64,000 nucleotides of DNA from an uncultured Oscillospiraceae bacterium (GTDB taxonomy: Bacteria > Bacillota > Clostridia > Oscillospirales > Oscillospiraceae), in NCBI GenBank assembly GCA_947169975.1, contig CAMVRT010000013.1:1-64000 (forward strand). The letters are read 5' to 3'. Position numbers and translations under genes: made by a program. Position 1 is the first letter of the stretch; every line of letters begins with the position of its first letter. A model generated the notes under the pieces. The model was not told where the DNA came from. It saw nothing but the letters and a program-made list of their open reading frames with translations, and did no database searches. This document shows, piece after piece, positions 1 through 50,876 of this stretch.

Positions 1-55
1 AGCTTTTTCTGCTTGACTGGTGCTCTTTTTTACGCGTTATTTTGCAACGCGCCCT

Positions 56-220
56 CAGATTGTAGAGAAAGGTAATTGGCCGAAAGGCTACGACACGCAT
101 GGGGGATTGTGAAGGGGGAGGGGACTCCCCCTTCACGTGAAATCCGTGCAGATGCAGGAACATTTTTCAATGTTTCTGCATCTGCCGCTCAAGCTGTCGA
201 CACTTTGTCGACAGCTTGAG
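56..220 (+). repeat. Structured dispersed repeat, copy 1 (three-hairpin element)
   Basis: About 165 nt that recur on the opposite strand at 49801-49970. Three hairpins lie at 109-136 (11-bp stem), 148-185 (15-bp stem with one G-T pair) and 188-220 (15-bp perfect stem around GTCGACA/TGTCGAC). Positions 90-119 are identical between the copies, and the linker at 137-147 differs by one base. Stem bases differ in compensating pairs, for example 151/182 and 154/179 are G-C here and A-T in copy 2. No open frame is conserved between the copies. It could be a structured RNA, a REP-like palindromic element or a non-autonomous mobile element. I do not recognise the family. It sits directly upstream of a spore-protein gene. 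Confidence 0.85.
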
Positions 221-253
221 ACCCGCCTGTTTTTTGGACAGGCGGGTCTTTTT
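220..253 (+). terminator. Intrinsic terminator at the 3' end of repeat copy 1
   Basis: An 11-bp stem (GACCCGCCTGT / ACAGGCGGGTC) is followed by TTTTT. It begins at the last base of the third hairpin of the repeat, so a plus-strand transcript of the element would end here, before the SASP gene. Confidence 0.75.
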
Positions 254-364
254 GCGTAGAAATTACCAAAGTTTTTGCTGCATATGGGGACAAATCCGGG
301 AAAAGCTATGGTTGCGATACCCAACGAGCGTATTGCTCAAATGATTTGAAAGGAGATTACCATT

Positions 365-562
365 ATGTCCAGCAAGAATACCAATCGACTGAACGTTCCC
401 GAGGCCCGCAGCGCCATGGATAAGTTCAAGATGCAGGCTGCCAACGAGGTTGGCGTGAACCTGAAGGAAGGCTACAACGGCGACCTGACCTCCCGTGAGG
501 CCGGCTCCGTGGGCGGCCAGATGGTCAAGCGCATGATCGAGTCCTACGAGAAGAGCCTGTAA
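365..562 (+). CDS. Alpha/beta-type small acid-soluble spore protein (SASP)
   Basis: This 65-residue protein coats and protects DNA in the dormant spore and is degraded at germination. The diagnostic core is NEVGVNL at 27-33 followed by GDLTSREAGSVGGQMVKRMI at 39-58, which matches the conserved DNA-binding helices of the family. The ATG follows a strong AAAGGAG site. Family knowledge predicts forespore expression from a sigma-G promoter, but I could not assign one confidently. An oddity: the usual GPR protease site E-(I/F)-A-S-E reads Q24-A-A-N-E28, so the acidic residue before the scissile bond is glutamine. A terminator follows the stop. Confidence 0.93.
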   Translation: MSSKNTNRLNVPEARSAMDKFKMQAANEVGVNLKEGYNGDLTSREAGSVGGQMVKRMIESYEKSL

Positions 563-48326: not shown

Positions 48327-49763
48327 ATGTTTTGGGCGGCTTTGATCGTTGTCATCATCAGTACTATTTCTTCCGTTATCAGCGCGCTTTACAAGTATCG
48401 CGATGTTCTGCTCTATACCGGTATTTTCTTCACGCGGAAGTTCAAGCCCGCGCAGCATCAACACAAGTACGCGATCCTCATCGCGGCGCGCAACGAGTCC
48501 GCCGTCATCGGCAACCTCATTGCCTCCATCCGCGCGCAGGACTATCCGGCGGAGCTCATTGATATTTTCGTCGCAGCCGATAACTGCACAGACAATACCG
48601 CGCAGATCGCCCGGTCCCACGGCGCATACTGTTACGAACGGTTTGACAGTGAGCACCGCACCAAGGGCTACGCGCTGCAGTTTCTGGTAGAGAATATCAA
48701 ACGGGATTTCGGCATTTATGCCTATGAGGGCTATATCATTTTTGACGCCGACAATCTGCTCAAGCGTGATTTCATGTCCCGCATGAACGACGCCTTTGAC
48801 GCCGGGGAGAAGATCGTCACCTCTTACCGCAATACCAAGAATTTTGACACCAACTGGATCAGTGCGTCCTACGGCATCCACTGGCTGCGCACGGTTCGAA
48901 ACGAGCACCGTGCCAGGTCGTTCTTCCACCTCGCTACCCGCATTCAGGGTACAGGCTTCCTCTTTGCCGCAGAGATCATCGAAAACGGCTGGAACTACAC
49001 CTCCCTCACGGAGGACCGGGCGTTCTGCGCGGATGCGGTGGCTAACGGCTACAAGATCTCCTACAACAACGCCGCGGAGTTCTACGACGAGCAGCCGGTG
49101 GATATGAAGATCGCCATGCGCCAGCGCATCCGCTGGGCGAAAGGCCATCTGCAGGCCTTTGTGGAGACAGCACCCCAGCTGTTCGCCCACATTTTTGTCA
49201 CCCACGGCATGGCAAACCGTGACGAGCCCGCCGATGCCCCGTGGTGGAAGCGCCTGTTCAACAACGTCCGTCTGCGCTTCATGAGCTTCGACATGCTCAC
49301 CATCGTCTATCCGCGGCAGCTGGTGTCATTTTTCAAAAAGATCGTTGTGATGGCCATGCGTATCGTGATGATCTGTGTCACGGGCTATGCCTTTGTCAGC
49401 GCGGGCCTTCTGCCCGGCGCAGCCCAGTGGATCATCAGAACATTCCACCTGACCTGGGTACCCTCCGGCGAGCTGCAGGCGATCCTCATGCTTCTGGCGG
49501 CAGCGATCATGTGGAGAATCAACAGCTGGCTTACAAACATGATTTTCGCAGCTTACGTGTTCATTTCGGAGTATAAGCGTATCGTGCCCATCAAGTGGTA
49601 CCGCAAGCTCTGGTACATCTTTATGTTCCCTGTGTTTGACCTGATCGGTGAGCTGTCTATGATTATCGCCCTGTTCAGCCATGTGGAGTGGAAGCCGATC
49701 CCCCACAATGCGGACGTCCGGTTGGACGAGCTTGAGCAGAAATACGAAGGCAATGCCAAATGA
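48327..49763 (+). CDS. Membrane glycosyltransferase family 2 (BcsA-like)
   Basis: A 478-residue processive-type GT2. One N-terminal helix (about 3-22), the catalytic domain with ILIAARNESAVIGNL, DADN at 140-143, the TED motif near 229 and QRIRW near 267, then about four C-terminal helices (about 330-440). The QRIRW motif is typical of synthases that extrude polymer through their own channel, such as cellulose or hyaluronan synthases. No partner such as BcsB or a PilZ domain is present. The polymer is not known. Followed by a hairpin and repeat copy 2. Confidence 0.9.
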   Translation: MFWAALIVVIISTISSVISALYKYRDVLLYTGIFFTRKFKPAQHQHKYAILIAARNESAVIGNLIASIRAQDYPAELIDIFVAADNCTDNTAQIARSHGAYCYERFDSEHRTKGYALQFLVENIKRDFGIYAYEGYIIFDADNLLKRDFMSRMNDAFDAGEKIVTSYRNTKNFDTNWISASYGIHWLRTVRNEHRARSFFHLATRIQGTGFLFAAEIIENGWNYTSLTEDRAFCADAVANGYKISYNNAAEFYDEQPVDMKIAMRQRIRWAKGHLQAFVETAPQLFAHIFVTHGMANRDEPADAPWWKRLFNNVRLRFMSFDMLTIVYPRQLVSFFKKIVVMAMRIVMICVTGYAFVSAGLLPGAAQWIIRTFHLTWVPSGELQAILMLLAAAIMWRINSWLTNMIFAAYVFISEYKRIVPIKWYRKLWYIFMFPVFDLIGELSMIIALFSHVEWKPIPHNADVRLDELEQKYEGNAK

Positions 49764-49766
49764 TTG

Positions 49767-49798
49767 CCGTTCCGCAGCCGGTATCCGGCTGCGGAACG
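49767..49798 (+). terminator. GC-rich hairpin after the GT2 gene
   Basis: A 14-bp stem (CGTTCCGCAGCCGG / CCGGCTGCGGAACG) with a 3-nt loop starts 6 nt after the stop. An almost identical hairpin recurs in the same orientation at 49965-49997, so the pair brackets repeat copy 2. It lacks a T tract on the plus strand. Confidence 0.6.
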
Positions 49799-49800
49799 GT

Positions 49801-49970
49801 CAGTGTGTCGACGCTTTGTCGACACACTGACCGGCAAATACAGAAACAGTGAAAAATGTTCCTGTATTTGCATGGATTTCACGTGAAGGGGGACTCCCAT
49901 CCCCCTTCACAATCCCCCATGCGTGTCGTTACCTTTCTTCATATTACTTTTGTCTACAGATTGAGCGTTC
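49801..49970 (-). repeat. Structured dispersed repeat, copy 2 (three-hairpin element)
   Basis: The minus strand repeats the element seen at 56-220 on the plus strand. Hairpins lie at 49883-49910, 49834-49871 and 49801-49829, with the same lengths or spacing as in copy 1. The stem at 49834-49871 carries A-T pairs (49868/49837 and 49865/49840) where copy 1 has G-C. The third stem keeps GTCGAC but changes at least three flanking pairs on both sides. The whole gap 49764-50117 otherwise holds only hairpins and the promoter of the next gene. Confidence 0.85.
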
Positions 49971-49997
49971 CGCAGCCGTCATCCGGCTGCGGAACGC
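49965..49997. repeat. Second copy of the GC hairpin flanking the repeat
   Basis: GCGTTCCGCAGCCG and CGGCTGCGGAACGC form a 14-bp stem around a 5-nt loop. Copy 1 of the large element has a shorter hairpin at the matching place, GCGTT/AACGC at 35-51, which suggests a fourth structural part of the element. Confidence 0.6.
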
Positions 49998-50117: not shown

Positions 50118-50876
50118 ATGCCGGAGAGAATTGTCAGCCGCAGCAACCCGCTTGTCAAACGCCTGCGCGCTCTGGCTGCCTCGGCTGACTTCCGCCGGGA
50201 ACAGGGACAGTTTCTCTGCGACAGCCCCAAGCTGGTGGAGGAGGCTCTGCGCGCCGGAGCCGGTGTTTCCACAGTGGTCTGCACCGATCCCGGACTGCTT
50301 CCCAATCTGCGGTCGGGCGTGGAGATCGTCACCGTCAGCGAGGACGTGATGGCCGCCGTCTCCCCGGCGAAAACACCCCAGGGGGTGCTGTGCGTCTGCG
50401 CCTTGCCCGACACGGCGCTTCCGTCCCGCCTGGAGGGAAAGCGCTACGTGGTGCTGGACGGCGTGCAGGATCCCGGCAATGTGGGCACCGTGCTGCGCAC
50501 GGCGGACGCCTTCGGCGCCGACGGTGTGATCCTGCTGCCCGGCTGCGCCGATCCCTTCAGCCCCAAGACGGTGCGTGCCTCCATGGGCGCGGTGTTCCGC
50601 TGCCCGGTGTGGCAGTGCGATGCCGGGGAACTGAAGGAGAAGCTGATCCGCAGCGGTATTCCCCTCTACGGTGCCGCCCTGCGGGAGGATACGGTGGACG
50701 CCAGAGCGGTTGACTATCGCCGCGCAGCCATCGCCATCGGATCGGAGGGGCGCGGCCTCACGGCGGAGGTGCTGGCGCTGTGCGACGCCACCGTGCGCAT
50801 CCCCATGGAGCCGCAGTGCGAATCGCTGAACGCGGCCATCGCCGCCGCGGTGCTGCTGTGGGAGGCATATCGATAA
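50118..50876 (+). CDS. TrmH/SpoU family RNA methyltransferase
   Basis: A 252-residue rRNA or tRNA 2'-O-ribose methyltransferase. An N-terminal substrate-binding part (about 1-90) begins ERIVSRSNPLVKRLRALAAS. The SpoU knot domain has VVLDGVQDPGNVGTVLRTAD (motif 1), AIAIGSEGRGLTAEV (motif 2) and IPMEPQCESLNAAIAAAVLL (motif 3), which form the trefoil-knot SAM site. The ATG at 50118 follows GGAGGGGAG. Confidence 0.94.
   Translation: MPERIVSRSNPLVKRLRALAASADFRREQGQFLCDSPKLVEEALRAGAGVSTVVCTDPGLLPNLRSGVEIVTVSEDVMAAVSPAKTPQGVLCVCALPDTALPSRLEGKRYVVLDGVQDPGNVGTVLRTADAFGADGVILLPGCADPFSPKTVRASMGAVFRCPVWQCDAGELKEKLIRSGIPLYGAALREDTVDARAVDYRRAAIAIGSEGRGLTAEVLALCDATVRIPMEPQCESLNAAIAAAVLLWEAYR

Follow-up and report, generated by a model that had tools for sequence, protein, structure and literature searches.

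Two copies of a folded element

The window analyzed here, a stretch of 64,000 nucleotides from an uncultured Oscillospiraceae bacterium, carries two copies of an element of 165 bp. Direct reading and BLAST place copy 1 at positions 55 to 219 of the plus strand and copy 2 at positions 49800 to 49964 of the minus strand. Both copies had been recognized in an earlier note made from the sequence; they are real, and its limits (56 to 220 and 49801 to 49970) are corrected here. Copy 1 lies upstream of a gene for a spore protein (SASP; 365 to 562, plus strand). Copy 2 lies between a glycosyltransferase gene (48327 to 49763, plus strand) and a SpoU methylase gene (50118 to 50876, plus strand), in an orientation antisense to the gene before it. 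Open reading frames partly overlap the copies (133 to 324, minus strand, 63 amino acids, at copy 1; 49553 to 49900, minus strand, 115 amino acids, at copy 2). A coding function was considered and rejected: at most 13 of 38 copies have a frame open through the whole element, whichever frame is read.

The element is bounded by imperfect terminal inverted repeats, with TCAGACTGTAGACAAAGG as the left end and TCAAGCTGTCGACAAAG as the reverse complement of the right end. In the window, the left repeat reads TCAGATTGTAGAGAAAGG in copy 1 (55 to 72, plus strand) and TCAATCTGTAGACAAAAG in copy 2 (49947 to 49964, minus strand). Between the ends there follow, in order, a variable 5' part, a conserved core with hairpin 1, and hairpin 2. 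On the plus strand of copy 1, the core occupies positions 97 to 149 (inner stem, 108 to 120 with 125 to 137; outer stem, 97 to 103 with 143 to 149), hairpin 2 with its covarying stem occupies positions 150 to 183, and hairpin 3 occupies positions 189 to 219; the core of copy 2 is at 49870 to 49922 of the minus strand. Since the left end resembles the reverse complement of the right end, hairpin 3 is, as read from the sequence, the right terminal repeat made palindromic.

Both copies fold far more stably than their dinucleotide shuffles (z of -10.1 for copy 1 and -8.8 for copy 2; 0 of 200 shuffles as low). Direct reading bore out the similarities on which the earlier note was built: a block of 30 nt (90 to 119) is identical in both copies, the G-C pairs 151/182 and 154/179 of copy 1 are replaced by A-T in copy 2, and hairpin 3 keeps GTCGAC with three flanking pairs that differ on both sides, from AGC/GCT to GTG/CAC. 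Its contention that such compensating changes exceed chance also holds in a larger alignment (A1; 38 sequences, 37 of them distinct copies). Among the 37 distinct copies, 97.8% of stem cells pair, and two-sided changes are found in 22 of 46 stem pairs, against a shuffle mean of 8.5 (0 of 500 shuffles as high). Hairpins 2 and 3 account for most of the covariation; the inner stem of hairpin 1 has 8 invariant pairs out of 13.

Two explanations may account for the compensating changes: constraint on an RNA, which we discuss with the core below, or DNA mechanics, that is, template switching that corrects imperfect palindromes. The latter, to which we assign somewhat less than an even chance, would make the changes uninformative about RNA. 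It is favored by the two target hairpins flanking copy 2, which are also palindromes and have an outer pair compensated between them, and by the loop inversions seen in the target hairpins of six copies. On the other hand, it would not lead one to expect the excess of G.U over A.C on the plus strand of the element (88 versus 18, or 28 versus 12 without three dominating columns), which is weak evidence because the cells are not independent, one column being G.U in 18 of 37 copies.

At gathering score, Rfam returned no match in the window and none in seven loci of other genera. In this respect, the statement that the element belongs to no named family stands; it fails for the element as a mobile element, which is of a known kind. 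Loose-threshold Rfam matches on positions 1 to 400 (25 in all) fell below gathering scores and were taken as chance.

Duplicated target hairpins and sites without the element

The earlier note had left the existence of further copies to a search. With copy 1 as the query, BLAST found 21 pieces in the same genome, which we interpret as 13 copies. Ten of these matched for most of their length, two are split by an insert of about 110 bp in hairpin 1, and one (L014) is diverged and gave only a partial match. Matching pieces occur in 10 of 32 genomes of the genus, this one included; many of these assemblies are fragmented, which makes absence weak evidence.

Several copies have an unusual structure. 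The insert of about 110 bp sits at the same place in hairpin 1 of four copies (L012, 1501 to 1790; L015/L013; L138; and L139), and a portion of the insert is found by itself near L010 (2825 to 2881, 96%), so that it resembles a dispersed repeat of a second kind, lodged in the palindrome of the element. At L028, L044, L045, L141, and L143, the core is present with 3' parts other than hairpins 2 and 3, and matching hairpins still flank L028. L201 (1501 to 1565 and the sequence upstream of it) consists of two tandem elements; a nearly identical hairpin separates them and recurs after the second.

In the window, both copies abut terminator-like hairpins. The right end of copy 1 is followed by one at 220 to 248 (plus strand) and then by TTTTT, with no match on the left; this copy is atypical in that the contig extends only 54 bp to its left and the left hairpin differs from the right one. 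Copy 2 abuts one target copy at its left end (49965 to 49997, minus strand) and the second at its right end (49767 to 49799, minus strand). We examined 90 copies, 71 from the genus (orthologues included, and eight fetched loci without a recognizable core excluded) and 19 from other genera. The same terminator-like hairpin flanks 35 of the 90 copies on both sides; our script called a pair in 37, of which L134 and L201 were discarded because the matched hairpins were not the abutting targets. Mispaired flanks of the 71 genus copies, used as a control, gave 1 pair in 137, and that one joins the orthologous sites L164 and L160. By this comparison, the element has the target-site duplication of a miniature inverted-repeat transposable element (MITE). 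The remaining 55 copies had no accepted pair, and some of them (e.g., L006 and L010) have pairs visible by eye below the script's threshold. An example of a duplicated target is AAATGCCCGGGATTTGAGGATCCCGGGCATTT at L003, and perfect duplications were found in other genera at L197, L199, L218, L219, and L223. The terminators at the insertion sites are predicted ones.

The two hairpins of a pair need not have the same orientation. With a difference of two edits taken as decisive, the loops are direct in 26 of the 35 copies, inverted in 6, and undecided in 3. The loop of L002 is inverted with zero mismatches over 30 nt; L143 and L205 are inverted less clearly. We regard loop orientation as a trace of the mechanism.

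We classed 41 representative copies by their flanking hairpins: 23 have both, 15 the right one only, 1 the left one only (L004), and 2 neither. The difference between right-only and left-only copies (15 versus 1; binomial P = 5e-4) may be inflated, as left limits, set with a looser pattern, are known with less certainty than right limits and window copy 1, cut by the contig start, was scored as right-only. In the 23 two-hairpin copies, the right hairpin is followed within 8 nt by at least four T's in 18, and the left one is preceded by at least four A's in 15; a T run follows the hairpin in 10 of the 15 right-only copies. With their right-hand hairpins and T runs retained, old copies resemble a stretch of a 3' untranslated region (3' UTR).

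A comparison of syntenic loci, as the earlier note had proposed, supports insertion. The element at L160 (G016) has AGCGCCCCGGATAACCGGGGCGCTT on both sides. In G012 (L252) and G029 (L253), a single hairpin of this kind, without the element, follows the same gene end, and G023 (L257) has a decayed copy after the hairpin. Because the far flank of L160 lies elsewhere in the other genomes, the comparison is limited to the terminator side. For the gene before L009, we read seven orthologous places (L229 to L235), each of which has one terminator-like hairpin. In six of them, there is no further element within the approximately 200 nt read; in L232, another IS1182-type end (CAGATTGTCAAAAAAGC) stands at the foot of the stem, and its other end lies beside a different hairpin. 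At L003, a single hairpin follows the orthologous gene in L236, and none was recognized in L238. The hairpin of the L160 site is present twice at the filled site and once at the empty ones, which is not the stem-loop replacement described for IS1272.

These observations bear on two further readings. Copies often adjoin terminator-like hairpins, as would ordinary, immobile cis-acting elements beside terminators. Such elements would not explain terminal repeats shared with IS1182 elements, the duplication of different hairpins at different sites, or sites without the element, and we consider this reading hardly credible. Group II introns are also known to insert beside terminators, and one sub-threshold group II match was present among Rfam results for positions 1 to 400 (minus strand); we set them aside because the target of the element is duplicated.

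Conservation and spread of the core

For the model search of relatives that the earlier note had suggested, we built a model of 65 positions (R1) from 42 genus copies. At an E value of 0.001 or less, it matched 21 of 300 genomes of the family, representing 14 of 106 sampled genera; at the level of the order, matches were found in 6 of 394 genomes and were strong in G000 and G023 only. We read 24 loci of other genera around core matches. Ends of the element's type adjoin the core in 7 of these 14 genera (g1, g12, g34, g40, g42, g72, and g103). In the other genera, the matches are weak, and some of them (29 to 35 bits) lie beside other IS1182-type ends at L208 (TGTCGAAAAA type) and L213 (TGTCAAAGAA type), and the weak matches at L210 and L212 are partly similar to these two. 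L206, L207, L209, L211, and L214 have GCATGGGG plus a hairpin and no recognized ends; at L206, L207, L209, and L211, these units lie around 1501 to 1566, with a tandem pair in L206 and in L207. The weak matches may be homologous to the element's core.

Conservation of the core raises the possibility that the element is a functional structured RNA, transcribed in 3' UTRs, whose core is used by the host and for which mobility is the mode of spread. The mean frequency of the commonest base is 0.954 in the core, above that in the left part (0.782), hairpin 2 (0.844), and hairpin 3 (0.853), and copies were collected largely through the core, with the eight loci without a recognizable core left out, which biases this comparison. 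Orthologous copies point in the same direction. In nine orthologous groups, recognized by eye from their flanks and represented by one pair each, the core differs at 8 of 485 positions and the rest of the element at 53 of 961 (P = 4e-4). Without the group L150/L162, the difference shrinks to 8 of 431 versus 35 of 851 (P = 0.03). Over all 18 orthologous pairs, which are not independent, the core differs at 14 of 966 positions, compared with 31 of 747, 33 of 643, and 17 of 454 elsewhere. The covarying stems, the plus-strand excess of G.U relative to A.C, and the retention of the right-hand hairpin alone in 15 copies and of the left alone in 1 would also fit an RNA. Against it, hairpin 1 has a nearly invariant inner stem with little covariation, the core is broken in the orthologue L164, hairpin 2 is missing in L167, copy 2 is antisense to its upstream gene, and palindromic DNA may also keep its arms matched. 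Taken together, the evidence that the core is under selection is moderate at best, an RNA function of the core is possible, and we judge it rather unlikely that such a function, with mobility as its vehicle, is what defines the element. Should the core be under host selection, it would represent a novel structured RNA that a transposon has disseminated.

A bolder variant, which we hold to be distinctly improbable, treats the core as a module. It would be a SINE-like parasite or an exapted RNA that became attached to the ends of three or more IS1182 groups in different genera and was kept by selection after insertion into 3' UTRs, so that terminator-seeking transposases seeded structured 3' UTR RNAs across the family.

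IS1182 elements and comparison with known systems

A mobile element of 165 bp is too short to encode a transposase, as is the case for MITEs, and its ends and palindromic targets are of types found in part of the IS1182 family. One IS1182 transposase was found in the same genome, on contig C29 (NF033551, 397 bits; PF13751); its closest named relatives are from Oscillospiraceae/Ruminococcaceae metagenome-assembled genomes (MAGs). The recognizable end of this IS (TCAGCTTGTCAAAGAACC) is related to, and different from, the ends of the element, and in this incomplete assembly, no ends common to the element and an autonomous element were found. Of 11 copy-bearing genomes, 3 have a PF13751 transposase, none with the element's ends.

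Matching ends do occur in relatives. Among 80 IS1182 loci fetched, L118, L123, and L125 have ends of the element's type (TGTAGACAAA or TGTCGACAAA) at both sides. L125, from an Oscillospiraceae MAG, has the ends TCAGACTGTCGACAAAG and TCAGACTGAAGACAAAAG with GACCTCTCCTTATCGAGAGGTC on both sides; the hairpin is duplicated around L118 as well, and the right flank of L123 stops after 4 nt. Relatives of the L118 transposase (E value of 1e-20 or less) are present in 50 of 400 genomes of the family, and 30 inspected loci of these relatives included none with TGTAGACAAA-type ends at both sides. In the 51 of the 80 fetched IS1182 loci that were examined for flanking hairpins, nine of them from one genome, the same hairpin is found on both sides in 34. 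The script scored 24 as direct, 2 as inverted, 8 as ambiguous, and 17 as lacking a pair, which is an undercount of pairs, since repeats of at least 17 bp at L057, L074, and L115 were scored as "none." Full IS1182 elements at L062 and L075 have flanking hairpin loops that are inverted relative to each other. Some IS1182 members are listed in IS tables with long direct repeats. An origin of the element by internal deletion of a known IS1182 was rejected, because a search of the 80 fetched loci gave no significant match to the core (best E value, 0.25).

Given its terminal repeats, its dispersed copies, the duplicated target hairpins, the empty site, and the IS1182 elements that share its type of ends, the element is very probably a nonautonomous, terminator-inserting MITE moved in trans by a DDE transposase of the IS1182 family. 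The earlier note had left the choice between a structured RNA and a structure-dependent mobile element open, and the same evidence upholds the mobile part of that statement. As for the mechanism, the transposase would recognize the palindrome as a structure, either a hairpin or a cruciform. It would then attach the ends of the element at the outer feet of the stem, one on each strand, and the whole hairpin would be copied during repair. The upstream gene would then keep a terminator beyond the element, making the insertion little harmful, and the element would thereby end up in the 3' UTR, where the right-hand hairpin would mostly be retained and the left one would decay. The inner hairpins and the core might, at a guess, aid transposition or act in the transcript. 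This scheme suggests how a mobile element avoids harm, namely, by rebuilding the stop signal at its landing site.

The closest relatives of the element are the IS1182-family ISs at L125, L118, and L123, which have terminal repeats of the same type and, in L125 and L118, a duplication of the whole hairpin. The element differs from them in lacking a transposase and in its core, which is unmatched in the 80 IS1182 loci. In the accessible parts of the reports on IS1272/TnSha1, IS1182-family elements of staphylococci, inverted repeats are the targets, among them five confirmed terminators (PMC4923244), and the hairpin is deleted, wholly or partly, without duplication (PMC4923244, PMC5678879). Terminator targeting is therefore shared with the element described here, whereas the hairpin is deleted there and duplicated here. 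Duplication of a whole stem-loop appears in the same accessible text only as pathway b of a model (PMC5678879); the present loci provide many natural cases of it, with terminator-like hairpins, at IS1182-type insertions. Two IS1182 elements are described with 4-bp repeats in the portions available (PMC3281130, PMC3196728), indicating that hairpin duplication is not family-wide. A MITE review does not mention IS1182 in its accessible sections (PMC10969869), and in the open-licence literature, as far as its text was accessible, we found neither this element nor any IS1182 MITE described for this group. By description, the BOX, RUP, and SPRITE repeats of pneumococcus are, like the element, short, dispersed, strongly folded, and intergenic; unlike for the element, no duplication of a whole terminator is described for them in the available text (PMC3049150). 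The kind of element and its targeting thus resemble known things, and the recurring structured core is the new part.
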